Shown: in pieces, positions 53,075-59,311 of the stretch
Layout: each line of letters starts with the position of its first letter
Position numbering within the stretch: position 1 is the stretch's first letter
Assembly: GCA_945883335.1 (NCBI GenBank)
Contig: CAMCXI010000006.1
Coordinates: forward strand, 25,343-89,342
Source: Candidatus Methylopumilus universalis
GTDB taxonomy: Bacteria; Pseudomonadota; Gammaproteobacteria; Burkholderiales; Methylophilaceae
Reading direction: 5' to 3'
DNA length: 64,000 bases
Translations under genes and position numbers: made by a program
Notes under the pieces: generated by a model
Database searches by the model: none
Told to the model about the DNA's origin: nothing
What the model saw: the letters and a program-made list of their open reading frames with translations, nothing else

Positions 53075-53390
53075 AATAAAACTCCTTATTTTATTGATAA
53101 AAAAACGACTTTAAATAACACTACATTAAAAACAAATTCACTATAAATCAAATTAGTTACAAAATAATTTCTCGAATCTTTTGTTCACAATCCTTTTCGA
53201 GTGAATGCATTTTAGAGAGTCAATGTTAAGAAGTAAAATCAATTGTTTTTATTGACACGATAAGTTTTACTTAATTAATTTGGGTTCGTTTGGCAAAAAG
53301 CATGTTTTTGAAAATTTTATTCTCCAAAAGAGTGATTGTTATAAAAATGCAGGCTAAGATTAAGCAGAAAAACTAAAAGGTAAAATCACG

Positions 53391-54296
53391 ATGTCCTCTG
53401 ATGCCAAAATCAATGCCAATCGAAGCAATGCTGACAAATCAACGGGACCAACCACAAGCACGGGCAAAGCGATAGCAAGCCAGAATGCAATCAAACATGG
53501 TGCTAGGAGCCAGAAGCTAGCAACTCATGAGACGCCGAATTACCAGCAGATGATAGATGAATTAAAAAAATCTTACCCCTCAAACAATCCCCTGGTCAGC
53601 CTTCAAATTGAAAGGATTGCTAAAATCAAAGTACAGTTAGATCGGGTTCAATTATTGATTGAAAATACGTTTGAAGAGGCTGATCTCAAAACAGCCATTG
53701 ATGATCATCTCATGGATCTATTTGAACTCGATGATCAGCAGCGCAGCAAAATGGGCCAGTCTGACAGCCTTAATCACGTGAATGTGATCGATATCGAAAA
53801 ACTTAATCTTGCTAGCGCTCTCTTGAAGTCTGATGCCATTCATTGCGAAACACACGAAGCGTTTATGGACGCATGCCCTGAGTTTTGTGATTACCTCATC
53901 AAACAAGCCAACAAGAATAAAATTAGCTTGGAAAGCTATATTTCTCACCTCGAAAGCAGCGCTTTTTCATTAGAAGCTTTAGATACAGAACTCTCAATAA
54001 TGCTTCAAAAACTCCTCCATGATCCCAAAGAAGATGCAATCAATCAAAGCGAGATTCAAAACATTTCTTTTGAGCGCCTATTAACCGCAGCAAAGGCTAT
54101 TATGCATTACCCGACGCTTCTTAAAACAATCGATTTAAAGTTAGCGATCTGCAAGCTCATCGAAAAGACCTCGCTTGTAAAAGGACAGCCAGATTTTGAA
54201 ACCCTAAACAACCTGTATCGGTATCAGACAAGTCTTCAAAAGCAACTCTCAACCACCATGGGAGAGTTGCTTGCGCTGGATGCAAAAGCAAGCTAA
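53391..54296 (+). CDS. Hypothetical protein with N-terminal NANRSNADKSTGP...GK..SQNAIKHG motif
   Basis: 301-aa ORF; N-terminal motif familiar from a dispersed family of unknown function. Confidence 0.7.
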   Translation: MSSDAKINANRSNADKSTGPTTSTGKAIASQNAIKHGARSQKLATHETPNYQQMIDELKKSYPSNNPLVSLQIERIAKIKVQLDRVQLLIENTFEEADLKTAIDDHLMDLFELDDQQRSKMGQSDSLNHVNVIDIEKLNLASALLKSDAIHCETHEAFMDACPEFCDYLIKQANKNKISLESYISHLESSAFSLEALDTELSIMLQKLLHDPKEDAINQSEIQNISFERLLTAAKAIMHYPTLLKTIDLKLAICKLIEKTSLVKGQPDFETLNNLYRYQTSLQKQLSTTMGELLALDAKAS

Positions 54297-54417
54297 GCAC
54301 TGCTTAACGACCCGAGTCTAATATTATTTAATATACTTATCAATGAGTTAGTGTTAATATAATTGACTTTCTAAAGAAACCTAAAATACCTTGGTTTCTT
54401 GTCAATTGGATAAAAAA

Positions 54418-54666
54418 ATGTACACCCAGCAAGTATTCGATTACCTCAAAAAATCCGGTCAAGAATTGGATAGAAAAATTGCACTTGAGACCGGTATCTC
54501 CTTAATTCAAGTACACGACTCATTAAAAGAGCTAGAAAAAGCTAAGAAAGTATTCACCTGTAGCGTGACCACTTATGAATATGGCGAATCCACGCAGGGC
54601 TTGATGTGCAGAATTTCAGGATACATTCCACCGGCAACGCCAGGCAGAAAAACTGCCAACAAATAG
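54418..54666 (+). CDS. Small predicted winged-helix/HTH protein
   Basis: MYTQQVFDYLKKSGQELDRKIALETGISLIQVHDSLKELEKAKKVFTCSVTTYE. Confidence 0.6.
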   Translation: MYTQQVFDYLKKSGQELDRKIALETGISLIQVHDSLKELEKAKKVFTCSVTTYEYGESTQGLMCRISGYIPPATPGRKTANK

Positions 54667-54749
54667 GGCAAGACTAACCAACGTTATTTCATCTAACAAA
54701 AAAGCCCGACCCCTTGTGAGAGTTGAGCTTTTAGTACTTCTTGATACAT

Positions 54750-54787
54750 TGTGATACTTCAAAATGGTGGGCTGGGGTCAATCGAAC
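54750..54787. repeat. Putative distal att copy (degenerate ssrA 3' end)
   Basis: TGTGATACTTcAAAATGGTGG-GCTGGGGtcAATCGAAC versus TGTGATACTT...AAAATGGTGGAGCTGGGGggAATCGAAC at 58924-58970. Confidence 0.7.
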
Positions 54788-54837
54788 AATGATCTATGAG
54801 CCTTTATCTAAGCCAATTTAGCTTATTCAAGCTATAA

Positions 54838-54860
54838 AGTTATACACAAAGTTATACATA
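54838..54860 (+). repeat. Left-end pair of AGTTATACAYA sites
   Basis: AGTTATACACA (54838) and AGTTATACATA (54850), 12-bp spacing. Confidence 0.8.
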
Positions 54861-55052
54861 ATTTTACAACCCACTATCTTAACTTGGCTCACTTAGAACT
54901 CTAAGGCCAACAATTCCGCAGGCTCTATAAGCAGAAACAGCCAATCCAGCATTCATCCGCCCCCAGCGCGTTTAATCGCATCAAACCAGTTACGCGCAAA
55001 CTGAGAAGCCCGTCTTGGATTATTAGCCTTCCCTGTAGTTTTTGATGTTAAT

Positions 55053-55451
55053 TTATGGCTTCTTGAGCTGACTTGGCCAACAACCTACAAGACCTTCGTT
55101 AACCCATGCTTCAAAGACAGGCACTTTGCTTTTTTGTGCCTTAAACGTAGAGTAAAAAGTGGCCTTTGAAGCGCCAGCCTTGTCATCTTCAATATCAACA
55201 CTCCACGCAGTTACTCCACGAGCAGAAAAAGTAACGTTAGCCAATTTTTGATCAGGATAAATGACGCTAGATATATTCTCAGGCGGCTCACAACCTCGCA
55301 TACCTTCACTAATAATTCTATAAGCAACCTGATAGTCAGCGTTTAAGTGAAACTGAACACCATTCTCAGAGCGATGAACCTCGCTGTAAGGAATGCCACA
55401 GCTTGATAGAGCAGCTAGAGAAAGAATTAAAACATATTTCGCGTAGGCCAT
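55053..55451 (-). CDS. Predicted lipoprotein, island cargo
   Basis: MAYAKYVLILSLAALSSCGIPYSEV: hydrophobic signal with lipobox LSSC; start set at 55451. Confidence 0.7.
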   Translation of the reverse strand: MAYAKYVLILSLAALSSCGIPYSEVHRSENGVQFHLNADYQVAYRIISEGMRGCEPPENISSVIYPDQKLANVTFSARGVTAWSVDIEDDKAGASKATFYSTFKAQKSKVPVFEAWVNEGLVGCWPSQLKKP

Positions 55452-55718
55452 GATTGTCCTTATTAGTGTAATTAACGTCTTATTAAAGCTATATATCATA
55501 GCAATCCAAAAGCCCTGACAAATTTACACATCAAATGTTATTTTGACAAACTATTAAGGCAACAAAGCCCAGCATAAAATTTATCTTTTCTTCGCGCGCG
55601 CGCGTGAAGGCAGAAAAATAAAATTCAAAAGGGCTTTTTTCGGACTAACGCTAATAGAAAGTTTAGTGAGCGATGTTAGGTAGAAAGGTAGTCTAGTTTC
55701 AAACCGCCCCTAGTCATT

Positions 55719-55886
55719 TTATTTTCTAGAGTCCTCATATATCCCCCATAACTGCTGCTCTGTTAAAGGCTTTAAAAACCTCTCCAAGTCTTCACTGGTC
55801 GCCAGCCGTAAAAGAAAGTTCTGCCATTCATCGCTATCTAACACCAACAAAGTATTCAACTCCAACTCTTCCCTCCCTTTATTCAT
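55719..55886 (-). CDS. Small ORF (55 aa), hypothetical
   Basis: Manual translation MNKGREELELNTLLVLDSDEWQNFLLRLATSEDLERFLKPLTEQQLWGIYEDSRK*; not in the supplied ORF track. Confidence 0.55.
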   Translation of the reverse strand: MNKGREELELNTLLVLDSDEWQNFLLRLATSEDLERFLKPLTEQQLWGIYEDSRK

Positions 55887-55920
55887 ATTCAGTCCTTGGC
55901 TAATGGTAATATTACATAGT

Positions 55921-56035
55921 GTTCACTCAGTGAACCTTACTAACAGCTAAAAATAATGAAAATGGGTTCACATACCGAACCTAGAAATACCCCCCAAGTT
56001 CATCCACCGAACCTACTTAGGTTCAACTACTGAAC
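55921..56035. repeat. Cluster of four 15-bp inverted repeats (iteron/operator-like)
   Basis: GTTCACTCAGTGAAC (55921), GTTCACATACCGAAC (55966), GTTCATCCACCGAAC (55998), GTTCAACTACTGAAC (56021). Confidence 0.85.
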
Positions 56036-56486
56036 AGTCATTTTTTTGCTCAGCTTTAATATTTTTTGGCTGTGGTCTTTTAGGTGTTGGCGGAGCATTG
56101 CATAACCTGTAAGCGCCCTGCCTAAAACCCTTGATAGGGATTATGTCTAATCCTAGTTTGTTCGATATTGGTAACCAAGTTACCGCATAAAGTTTAGCTC
56201 CCTTACGCATACCTCCATTTTTAGTTTGTTGTATTAGCTCACGTTCTTCAAGCTCTCTTTTGGCCTTTACGTTTAAAGGCCTGCTTGTAAAGCCGTATCG
56301 TTTAAGCCATGTATGCGTTAACTGATAGTGCCCATTGTTTGTGCCGTCATATTGACGGCAAAGCATAATTAACATCGAGCGAGCATAATGAGTTAAACCT
56401 ATAAAAGCTTGACTATCTATAACGCTAAATGGAAGCGGGGCATAGCTCCCGCTTACCTGCTCTGGACGTTTTTTTGACCTTGACAT
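56013..56486 (-). CDS. Hypothetical HTH-like, possible replication-initiation protein
   Basis: IDSQAFIGLTHYARSMLIMLCRQYDGTNNGHYQLTHTWLKRYGFTSRPLNVKAKRELEERELIQQTKNGG; winged-helix-like; in cluster with AlpA-like gene. Confidence 0.55.
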   Translation of the reverse strand: MSRSKKRPEQVSGSYAPLPFSVIDSQAFIGLTHYARSMLIMLCRQYDGTNNGHYQLTHTWLKRYGFTSRPLNVKAKRELEERELIQQTKNGGMRKGAKLYAVTWLPISNKLGLDIIPIKGFRQGAYRLCNAPPTPKRPQPKNIKAEQKNDCSVVEPK

Positions 56487-56490
56487 AGCA

Positions 56491-56760
56491 TCAAGTCCCT
56501 AGAATTTTTCGAGCTTTTTCCCTATCTACCTCTTTCAACCAGTAGCGCTTACATTCAGTTTTCCCACCAAAAGCATTAGGCACACTTTCCATCTTACGCA
56601 AAAAAACTAGCCCATACTTGCGCTGAATATCGGAGACTGTAGTTCGCAAAACGTAATCATGGTGAAAGTTTGCTGCTTCAAAGCAATTTAAACCTGCCTC
56701 GCCTTTCTCAACAAATAAATTCAACATAGAAGTTTGTTTAGTTTTTAGACATTCACGCAT
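56491..56760 (-). CDS. Predicted winged-helix DNA-binding protein
   Basis: GEAGLNCFEAANFHHDYVLRTTVSDIQRKYGLVFLRKMESVPNAFGGKTECKRYWL. Confidence 0.6.
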   Translation of the reverse strand: MRECLKTKQTSMLNLFVEKGEAGLNCFEAANFHHDYVLRTTVSDIQRKYGLVFLRKMESVPNAFGGKTECKRYWLKEVDREKARKILGT

Positions 56761-56762
56761 AA

Positions 56763-56948
56763 TTAAGCCCCGATTTTAGAGTTAATAAAGCGCGCAAGTT
56801 CAACTTCACTTACTGTGGTAGTTCTTGTAGTTAATTTATTTGTTTTGATTTCACCGTTTTTGACTAAACGCCAAAAAGTCGAAATTGATATGCCGAGGCT
56901 ATCGGCTACTTGAAGTGGGCGATATTGCTTAGTAACTTGATTTTGCAT
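56763..56948 (-). CDS. AlpA/excisionase-like HTH protein
   Basis: YRPLQVADSLGISISTFWRLVKNGEIKTNKLTTRTTTVSEVELARFI. Confidence 0.8.
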   Translation of the reverse strand: MQNQVTKQYRPLQVADSLGISISTFWRLVKNGEIKTNKLTTRTTTVSEVELARFINSKIGA

Positions 56949-57017
56949 TTTAGAATTCCATAAATTGTTAAGGAGTTCTAATAATGTTCAATTTTATTTC
57001 ACGTTATAACCCGCCAG

Positions 57018-57557
57018 CTAGATGACGGGGTTAAGTTTTTTAGCTTTCTTTTTTAAATTTGTGACAAGCTCATCAATACTCTCAATCCTCTCAATTTCCG
57101 GATACTTGCCTGCCATTTCATCAATAAAAGCTTGTTTGTAGCCATGCTTACCATCAATTATTAGAAGTCGTTTTGGATGACTAGGCCAGTCCATATTGGC
57201 TATTTTATAAAGGGCTTTGCTGGCAGGATTGTTTTTAGCACGCTGTTTTCCACCCTTACTTTTTTCTTGCTTTATTGCATAAGAGGCAACATCTCTAGCA
57301 ATCTGCTCCACCAAGCAAAAAACAGTTAACCCATCAACATTCTTTAGCTCTAAAAAATTTAGAAATGCTGGTTTTTGGCCTAGTAGTTTTATTATCTTAT
57401 TTGCTTCAGAGTTTGCTTCAGGGTATCTCTCAATAAATTCTTCGATTGATTTTCTTAGTCGCGCTGTCTTTTCAGGATTATCCTGACTGTTAACCAGCAC
57501 TTCCAAGACCTCAAAAGGCCTTATAGCGTCAGGTAATTCTATCTTTTTGTTGCCCAT
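57018..57557 (-). CDS. Hypothetical protein of the island, next to the integrase
   Basis: 179-aa ORF, co-directional with int, 11 bp downstream. Confidence 0.6.
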   Translation of the reverse strand: MGNKKIELPDAIRPFEVLEVLVNSQDNPEKTARLRKSIEEFIERYPEANSEANKIIKLLGQKPAFLNFLELKNVDGLTVFCLVEQIARDVASYAIKQEKSKGGKQRAKNNPASKALYKIANMDWPSHPKRLLIIDGKHGYKQAFIDEMAGKYPEIERIESIDELVTNLKKKAKKLNPVI

Positions 57558-57568
57558 ATACTCACCCT

Positions 57569-58786
57569 TTAAGCCTGATTAAATGGAAGCACTATTGCAT
57601 CTGCTTTTAGCTCATCTAGGTAGTCTGCCCATATTTGCATCATTGATTGACGCTGTTCTAAAAATTTAGTGCGGTTGTAGGCTCTTCCCAAAGCGTCAGG
57701 CACTTTGTGGGCTAATTGATGCTCAATTATGGCAGGGTCGATGTTTAATCTTTCATGAAGAAGCGTTCTAGCCATAGCTCTAAAACCGTGCCCAGTGATT
57801 TGAGTCTTAGTATCGTAACCCATGCGCTTTAAGGCCGCGTTAATAGCGCTCTCACTCATAGGCTTTTGGGGGTCGTGTCCGCCCTGAAAAACAAATACCC
57901 CCTCCCCACTGAAAGGATGGATTTGTTTAAGTATGTTAAGGGCTTGGTTTGATAAAGGCACAATATGGTCTGTTTTAGTTTTACTAACACGATAAGCCCA
58001 AATTGCATTATCAAGGTCAATATCTCCCCATTTAGCACGCCTTAGCTCGCTAGGGCGAGTAAAAACCAGCGGGGCAAGACGGAGAGCACTCTCAACTGTA
58101 AAAGTCCCTTGAAAGCCATCTATTGCGCGTAATAATTCGGCAACTTGCTGAGGTTCAGTAAATGAAGCCATGTGTTTAACTTGCGGTGAAGGTAAAGCCC
58201 CCCTCAAATCGCCTGTAACATCTCGCAATGCCTTGCCATTTTGCACCGCGTATCTAAAAATTTGTCCGATTGCTTGCAAAGCTCTATGGGCGGTTTCCAA
58301 CTTGTTCTGATTTTGAGGGCGCTGTATAACTTGCAATACATCGGGAGCGGTAATGTCTGAAATGGGCTTCTTACCCAACCAAGGAAAAATATAAATTTCC
58401 AATCGTCTTACAGTGCGTTCTTTATGAGATAAAGATTTTGTAACGAAATAACTTTCAGCCCATTCACGCGCTAACGCCTCAAAAGTATTTTCATATTTAC
58501 CGTAAAGGGCTTGTTTTTGAGCCTTTTTTACATCGACTGGGTCAACGGGAGGAGTCTGAGCGAGAAGTTTTCTTGCGTTGTCTCGCCTAGTCCTTGCTTC
58601 AGCCAAAGTTACTTCAGGATAAGTCCCAAAAGACAATAATTTTGCTTTACCAGCAAAACGATAGCGATATCGCCACCACTTACCGCCCTTAGCTTTAATC
58701 AGAATTGACAAGCCTTGCCCATCGGCAAGTGTGTAATCTTTATCACTTGGTTTTGCATTACGAAGAACTGTATCTGTTAGCGACAT
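57569..58786 (-). CDS. P4-type tyrosine integrase (DUF4102 N-terminus)
   Basis: LADGQGLSILIKAKGGKWWRYRYRFAGKAKLLSFGTYPEVTLAEARTRRDNARKLL; catalytic HGFRAMARTLLHERL...EHQLAH...YNRTKFLEQRQSMMQIWADYL. Confidence 0.96.
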   Translation of the reverse strand: MSLTDTVLRNAKPSDKDYTLADGQGLSILIKAKGGKWWRYRYRFAGKAKLLSFGTYPEVTLAEARTRRDNARKLLAQTPPVDPVDVKKAQKQALYGKYENTFEALAREWAESYFVTKSLSHKERTVRRLEIYIFPWLGKKPISDITAPDVLQVIQRPQNQNKLETAHRALQAIGQIFRYAVQNGKALRDVTGDLRGALPSPQVKHMASFTEPQQVAELLRAIDGFQGTFTVESALRLAPLVFTRPSELRRAKWGDIDLDNAIWAYRVSKTKTDHIVPLSNQALNILKQIHPFSGEGVFVFQGGHDPQKPMSESAINAALKRMGYDTKTQITGHGFRAMARTLLHERLNIDPAIIEHQLAHKVPDALGRAYNRTKFLEQRQSMMQIWADYLDELKADAIVLPFNQA

Positions 58787-58836
58787 GTGTATAACTCACT
58801 TTTTGGATAACTCAGTTATACATAAAGTTATACACA
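58786..58836. repeat. Right-end AGTTATACAYA sites (one inverted over int start, two direct)
   Basis: TGTGTATAACT (58786-58796, inverted), AGTTATACATA (58814), AGTTATACACA (58826). Confidence 0.8.
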
Positions 58837-58947
58837 TTACAGTGGCATGTCAATGAAGTTTATAACACTAAATGAAACGAATGGACAACAAAAACCCTCA
58901 TGGTTAGCGGGTTTATGAGGTTTTGTGATACTTTATAATTTTAAAAA

Positions 58948-59311
58948 TGGTGGAGCTGGGGGGAATCGAACCCCCGTCCGCAAGCCCTCCACAGACAGTT
59001 CTACATACTTAGCTGTGTTGTTTGATTTAACTTATTCCACACCAACGAGCAAGCAAGAAATAAGCGAGTTACCTTAGGGTTAATGAGGTGCTAAGTAACC
59101 CAACACTTCACGTATCCCATGTATATGACACTGCCATGACTTTCGTCATCCACCCCATGGGAATGATGGTGCAGCGTCCAGCCGGATTAAGCGGCTAGAG
59201 AGTAAGTTTCGTCGTTTGCGACTATACTTTTTTCAGCTGTATTTACGAGGGAACTGAGCCTCGGTATGCCCTGCACTGCTTTGCAACCCACGTCGAAACC
59301 TGGTCAGCCCC
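58948..59311 (-). ncRNA. ssrA: tmRNA
   Basis: 5' GGGGCTGACCAGGTTTCGACGTGGG and 3' GGGGGTTCGATTCCCCCCAGCTCCACCA; tag ORF GCA AAC GAC GAA ACT TAC TCT CTA GCC GCT TAA = ANDETYSLAA at 59187-59219. Confidence 0.97.

Follow-up and report, generated by a model that had tools for sequence, protein, structure and literature searches.

A compact satellite-like integrative element with a putative iteron origin at the ssrA gene of Candidatus Methylopumilus universalis

A stretch of 64,000 nucleotides from Candidatus Methylopumilus universalis, hereafter the window, was analyzed; it belongs to an assembly of 1.6 Mb in 12 contigs. It carries a site-specific integrative element at the 3' end of ssrA, which is confirmed by a tyrosine integrase, direct repeats at both ends and an empty site in a relative. 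The element extends from the ssrA 3' end to position 54765, a span of about 4.2 kb. Its ends, the empty site, the arm repeats, the gene order and an iteron array conserved in relatives are read from the sequence. The best explanation, with a probability of roughly 60%, is a minimal integrative replicon resembling PICMIs and PICIs, packaged by a phage.

Insertion at ssrA

The features of the element are listed in Table 1. The start codon of the integrase gene lies 161 bp from the tmRNA 3' end, and all seven open reading frames, from the integrase to the lipoprotein-like gene, are on the same strand. Both the distance (given as about 160 bp) and the set of ORFs agree with the first-pass annotation.

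Table 1. Features of the element and its boundaries in the window
Feature	Positions	Strand	Remarks
ssrA (tmRNA), attachment gene	58948..59311	-	tag ANDETYSLAA; ARAGORN
attL core CCACCATTTT	58944..58953	-	last ssrA bases + 4 nt; common to attR and to the empty site (G006, contig C59)
Three arm-type repeats AGTTATACA, int end	58788-58796; 58814-58822; 58826-58834	-; +; +	
Tyrosine integrase, 405 aa	57569..58786	-	Arm-DNA-bind_3, Phage_int_M, Phage_integrase; R-HxxR-H-Y motifs present
ORF179	57018..57557	-	starts 11 bp after int; occupies PICMI iolg/icg slot
AlpA/excisionase-like HTH_17 protein, 61 aa	56763..56948	-	Pfam HTH_17, PHROG excisionase
ORF89, small protein	56491..56760	-	winged-HTH inferred from HTH_39 proteins in the same slot in relatives
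Rep157, putative replication initiator	56013..56486	-	weak PHROG O-like and PDB 4pta profile matches
Putative origin, four GTTC-N7-GAAC iterons	55921..56035	-	iterons at 56021, 55998, 55966, 55921
ORF55	55719..55886	-	no confident family match
Accessory lipoprotein-like ORF	55053..55451	-	signal with LSSC lipobox by eye; start MAYAK
Two arm-type repeats AGTTATACA, distal end	54838..54858	+	
Probable element-derived attP half mimicking the ssrA T-arm/acceptor stem	54771..54788	-	GTTCGATTGACCCCAGC, one T missing
attR core CCACCATTTT	54761..54770	-	native chromosomal flank begins to its left in the window
Displaced native ssrA terminator	54698..54735	-	now apart from ssrA; homologous to the terminator directly after G006 ssrA

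The empty site was found in a relative (G006), where ssrA is directly joined to the 90 bp that flank the distal end of the element in the window. In this genome, CCATTTTAAAGTATCACAATGTATCAAG and a strong terminator (z = -3.9) come after ssrA, and this stretch corresponds to window positions 54698-54787, 4.2 kb away from ssrA (88% identity over 90 bp). The sequence at 54698-54770 is present there as the true ssrA 3' flank, as was anticipated for element-free relatives. The stem of the displaced terminator is predicted to be weaker than that of G006 (-13.9 vs -20.3 kcal/mol by folding). A terminator supplied to ssrA by the element was considered and rejected, as the fold was not clearly better than shuffles (z -1.1).

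In a pattern search of 187 family genomes, the exact empty-site sequence was found in G006 and the window alone; G006 is the one close empty-site relative, and the genomes compared are drafts. In a genome of another genus (G115), the site sequence follows ssrA with a single mismatch, and an integrase match is absent. In G008, whose genome is a single contig, a match to window position 53277, beside ahpC, lies about 0.5 kb from ssrA, and no integrase separates the two.

The surroundings of ssrA are partly rearranged in the genus, the gene not being next to smpB in G002, G006 and G007, so that synteny was usable for some relatives and not for all.

When the genomes of the genus were searched, ORF179, ORF89 and the lipoprotein gene had no relative elsewhere, and Rep157 had one distant relative, beside a different integrase (G006, contig C157). 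The insert therefore behaves as a unit. Genomes lacking the integrase while keeping the remaining genes at the locus, which the first-pass annotation had named as evidence against a single element, were absent from the element-free genomes of the genus.

A degenerate second copy of the ssrA 3' end had been noted at the distal end of the element. The copy is real (54761-54788, 28 alignment columns, 89% identity, one gap), but it is probably not a product of decay, to judge from an alignment of the two ends of ten elements. To the left of CCA, the distal copies of the window, L078, L079, L087 and L088 read GTT.GATTGACCCCAGC or GACGCC, without the T of GCTCC. The altered form GATTGAC.CC.GC, without the T, is common to five Methylophilaceae ssrA elements, several of them in other genera, and the tRNA-Leu elements L091 and L092 have an analogous pattern. 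On the right-hand side of CCA, 31-34 of 34 positions agree between the two ends of L078, L079, L086, L088 and L092. Because the altered form recurs across genera, the distal copy is probably DNA of the element, its own attP half; a decayed and displaced ssrA end was rejected as the main source of the repeat, since the same changes recur in other elements. The comparison argues for a crossover at or just after CCA, which would leave ssrA itself unchanged; it could instead lie within the AAGTATCACAA block. The chromosomal part of attR would start about at CCA/TTTT. The match of host-variable positions (CCCC vs CGCC, AGC vs TGC) in the mimic is not fully explained by the attP-half reading.

The sequence AGTTATACA occurs at six sites in the 64 kb, with 0.27 expected in the whole window, and five of the six are at the two ends of the element. 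In several relatives, too, the two ends share repeats, each relative having its own repeat sequence; on the side of the RNA gene they are about 110-125 nt away from it, and the others are close to the distal end. Together with the arm-binding domain of the integrase (PF13356), these repeats have the anatomy of a lambda-type integrase system.

Gene content and related elements

The best named relatives of the integrase are in Methylophilaceae (Methylotenera versatilis, 65%), which fits a host from that family. The AlpA-like protein matches Pfam HTH_17 with an E-value of 1.4e-5, just under the cut-off, and the PHROG excisionase family with an E-value of 4e-4. The L078 protein in the position of ORF89 matches PF14090. 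A single weak relative of the lipoprotein-like ORF was found, in G044. Relatives of Rep157, of the Rep of a related element, of ORF179 and of the lipoprotein were absent from IMG/VR, and ORF179 had none in the family genomes either. Structures of Rep157 and ORF179 predicted without alignment had a mean pLDDT below 50 each and were uninformative.

Searches that included Pfam, PHROG and PADLOC revealed no structural, terminase or conjugation homologue in the seven ORFs. With the G006 empty site, this gives good support to the earlier description of a compact ssrA element devoid of structural and conjugation genes, and an autonomous prophage was rejected for want of structural and terminase genes in the element. 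A primase with DUF3987 (PF13148) or DUF5906 (PF19263) was absent from the seven ORFs in the Pfam scan. Within the element there was likewise no primase or helicase gene, no Pri-Rep type replication protein, and none of the P4-like alpha primase-helicase, psu, sid or delta; no ORF matched a relaxase or mobilization gene. A defence system was also rejected, as the PADLOC match was to the HTH of AlpA alone.

Relatives of Rep157 are encoded in 17 of the 187 genomes of the family. For the order, the count is 36 of 399 (33 of 159 genera), mostly beside a tyrosine integrase. Twenty loci of the order sample were inspected; 17 had an integrase match, and 12 of these 17 adjoin a tRNA or tmRNA gene. In other Methylophilaceae, related integrases are at ssrA or tRNA genes, and distal direct repeats delimit elements about 5-12 kb long; lengths of 4.8-5.6 kb are found more than once elsewhere. 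The cluster of int, AlpA, winged-HTH and Rep genes sought in related genomes was found in Methylophilaceae, at ssrA or tRNA genes, but the small winged-HTH protein is usual rather than universal, and the cargo differs. It consists of a type I restriction-modification system in L092, with a homologous cluster in L081; a type ISP/IIG enzyme and a GGDEF/EAL protein in L084; and UmuD/UmuC-like genes in L093. A gene termed 'cl3' follows rep in many relatives and is missing from the element of the window.

An ssrA element of the same genus (G003) resembles that of the window in its related integrase (61%), its site and its int-ORF-AlpA start; it differs in its size of about 12 kb and in a VapE-type helicase/primase that takes the place of Rep157. 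The combination of a related integrase with this helicase/primase indicates that the replication module is exchangeable. A relative of Rep157 is also found on a conjugative plasmid of Cupriavidus, in an element that encodes a phage major capsid protein and a helicase as well, and another in a 16-kb record named Pseudomonas phage vB_Pae_U1, which has no annotated virion gene.

Rep157 and the putative origin

The first-pass annotation had listed two small ORFs of DNA-binding type and, separately, a cluster of inverted repeats. Both are present, the cluster as the four palindromes of Table 1, but Rep157 and the cluster appear to form one replication module. Rep157 weakly matched the PHROG O-like replication initiation family (E = 0.006), and its 19-row profile weakly matched the replication initiator of PDB entry 4pta (E = 0.009). 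Together with the iterons, these weak matches suggest that Rep157 is a replication initiator, weakly akin to lambda O.

The motif GTTC-N7-GAAC occurs just four times in the 64 kb, all within the cluster, with 0.58 expected and none of 100 shuffles reaching four. The iterons are spaced by 23-32-45 bp. Three of them are followed, 3' of rep, by a spacer of 73% AT containing an A/T tract, and then by the fourth.

An unbiased scan for four similar 15-mers at any spacing of 20-50 bp found, in the majority of loci, arrays around nucleotide 450 of rep, with spacings of 23-33-45, 33-33-45 or 32-43-44. Four iterons with near-identical spacing (23/33, 33/43, 44/45 bp) were found in 28 of 38 related loci and in none of 135 control segments, a fit being a score of at least 60, with the spacing set fixed after both samples had been seen and the controls scored under the same definition. 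In the second, order-wide sample, the spacing combinations of the first sample were found at 10 of 20 loci, and those of the full set at 13 of 20. Between alternative spacings, the difference is close to one helical turn. The iteron sequence varies from element to element (GTTC..GAAC, TACG..CGTA, ACCG..CGGT, TCCG..CGGA, GGTAAATTTTACC). In the last spacer, positions 14-17 form a tract of 93-96% A/T, and TTTT is found at positions 10-19 in 19 of 28 loci (at most 8 in shuffles).

The rep gene of close relatives is longer and contains the iterons. That of the window ends earlier (157 vs about 218 aa) and the distance of the iterons from the rep start is unchanged, which favours a functional origin over a coincidence of coding. 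The cluster is thus very probably a replication origin at a fixed distance from the start of the initiator gene. No description of this origin family was found in the open literature; older or subscription papers may hold one. We tentatively propose, as a possibility somewhat short of even odds, that these elements make up a family of compact satellites that has not been described before and is distributed across the order. Its members would have an O-like initiator, four palindromic iterons with a spacing fixed to helical turns, and an iteron sequence that changes between elements and gives each its own replication specificity. Such specificity would possibly allow coexistence or exclusion at shared ssrA or tRNA sites.

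The short Rep157 also bears on the main alternative, that the element descends from a larger ssrA element or prophage and is now immobile, its replication and integrase genes being relics that survived the loss of most others. The very small size, the shortened Rep, the missing 'cl3' gene and a 10-nt insertion in attL, right after the core, relative to the G006 empty site would fit this reading. It is nevertheless unlikely: the core ORFs are all intact, with the catalytic motifs of the integrase present, as are the iterons and arm sites; the shortening of Rep left the iterons where relatives have them; and other elements are of nearly as small a size.

Proposed way of life and comparison with known systems

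We infer excision, replication, phage induction, packaging and a role for the lipoprotein as follows. The integrase would recombine the attP core, consisting of the ssrA T-arm mimic and CCACCATTTT, with the ssrA 3' end, assisted by the arm sites at both ends, and AlpA would act as an excision factor, an activator or both. After excision, Rep157 would bind the four phased iterons at the end of and just after its own gene, open the adjacent A/T tract and recruit the helicase and primase of the host, or of a helper, so that the circle is amplified. A phage would then package the DNA of the element. The lipoprotein may be accessory cargo.

The first-pass annotation had suggested a helper-dependent satellite or a mini-integrative element. 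The architecture agrees with a satellite, as PICMIs and Gram-negative PICIs have the same unidirectional int-x-alpA-x-rep-ori order followed by an accessory gene. For the element of the window, however, neither a helper nor a cos/pac site nor a small terminase was found. Helper-dependent transfer we infer from the absent genes and by analogy, including with tmRNA islands carried by a jumbo phage. The terminase PF03237 was not found in the host assembly, which is incomplete, and helpers can be virulent.

An integrative mobilizable element, transferred by conjugation through a helper plasmid from an unrecognized oriT, appears improbable. The lack of packaging genes, the difficulty of recognizing oriT-only elements and the Rep relative on the Cupriavidus plasmid are compatible with it, but no ORF has a relaxase or mobilization homologue, known satellites share the layout with int, AlpA and an origin of their own, and relatives carry cargo for defence against phages. 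More improbable still is a defence or cargo island of the tycheposon type, driven by its integrase, moved by vesicles or phage particles and with an incidental replication module: Methylophilaceae have flexible islands associated with tRNA and tmRNA genes, one of them described as a tycheposon (PMC10872708), and larger relatives carry restriction systems, but an origin architecture that is conserved while the cargo varies makes incidental replication unlikely.

A phage-packaged minimal replicon would imply that about 4.2 kb and seven ORFs may be enough for a satellite-like element; few satellites have been described in this bacterial family. The origin signature offers a testable way to find such elements from sequence alone, irrespective of what they carry or where they integrate, and initiators paired with element-specific iterons offer a natural data set on the evolution of initiator specificity.

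Among known systems, PICMI115 of Vibrio has the order int-iolg-alpA-up1-prim-up2, in which all genes except up1 and up2 are needed for transfer (PMC10803314). The order int, ORF179, AlpA, ORF89, Rep157, then ORF55 and the lipoprotein parallels it; int and alpA are colocalized and capsid genes absent in both, with 6.1 kb in PICMI115 and 4.2 kb here. PICMIs differ in their DUF3987/DUF5906 primase and their site, fis, whereas the element of the window has an O-like initiator with phased iterons at ssrA. PICMIs are further characterized by excision and by concatemeric packaging through a virulent helper phage, and Gram-negative PICIs by att sites that prophages do not use and by induction and packaging that depend on a helper. 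In Gram-negative PICIs, the genes all point one way and the origin follows rep on its 3' side, with an AT-rich stretch between sets of iterons; some lack TerS (PMC6092414). The element has in common with EcCICFT073 an integrase, AlpA, genes in a single direction and an origin right 3' of rep, and its iteron sets also flank an AT-rich stretch; typical PICIs are larger and use Pri-Rep, whereas neither Pri-Rep nor a cos/pac site was found here. The element is therefore filed as PICMI/PICI-like rather than as a member of either group, the PICMI primase and the PICI Pri-Rep being absent.

The Pseudomonas islands I23, I44 and I55 (PMC12595487) likewise lie at the tmRNA 3' end, with a tyrosine integrase, AlpA and direct repeats and without genes for autonomous transfer, and I55 is moved by a jumbo phage. 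Their defence cargo has counterparts in relatives of the element. They differ in being much larger, with AlpA at the distal end and YqaJ-type genes, and an O-like Rep/iteron module is not described for them in the text consulted. From lambda-type O/ori systems (PMC7466680), the family of the window differs in its wide and regular iteron spacing (23/33, 33/43, 44/45), in a sequence that varies per element, in the position of the A/T tract between iterons 3 and 4 and in having no recognized P-type helicase loader; it resembles them in a putative initiator whose gene contains or adjoins four iterons, close to an AT-rich tract.

The ahpC–attR segment and the location of ssrA

The chromosomal segment between ahpC and attR, the distal end of the element, is rearranged, since relatives of ORF91 sit in differing neighbourhoods: near tRNA-Lys in the relative genomes G006 and G007, near tRNA-Met in G002, and near pyruvate kinase/cbpA-like genes in G005.

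The attachment gene ssrA, too, has apparently changed position within the genus. It is not adjacent to smpB in G002 (loci L127, L128, L129), G006 (L130, L131) or G007 (L132, L133). Two ssrA-like genes are found at separate locations in G002, one of them with an altered 3' end.

Features within and beside the element (window positions)
Feature	Position	Remark
ORF301	53391-54296	short and partial matches only
ORF91	54391-54666	adjoins attR
Near-perfect palindrome CTTCGCGCGCGCGCGTGAAG	55590-55609	between ORF55 and the lipoprotein gene

Gene content of related elements

A conserved protein of about 200 residues (motif QANI..G.QQVNN) is encoded immediately 3' of rep in six related elements (L078, 8124-8729; L079, L080, L084, L086, L088) and is missing from the window element. 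The L078 copy had no match in Pfam or PHROG.

The deposited record of Pseudomonas phage vB_Pae_U1 (L072; PP003913.1, 16,187 bp) describes it as a complete phage, but its annotation lists no virion gene. Given that, and given its int, cox, O-like rep and primase, it may instead represent a satellite or island. Palindromes GGTACAGAAACTGTACC lie close to its rep.

A satellite-like element (L073) is carried by the conjugative plasmid NZ_CP032520.1 of Cupriavidus oxalaticus. It encodes an integrase, an HTH protein, a toprim protein, a relative of the putative initiator Rep157, a helicase and a major capsid protein, and a group II intron reverse transcriptase gene is inserted within it.
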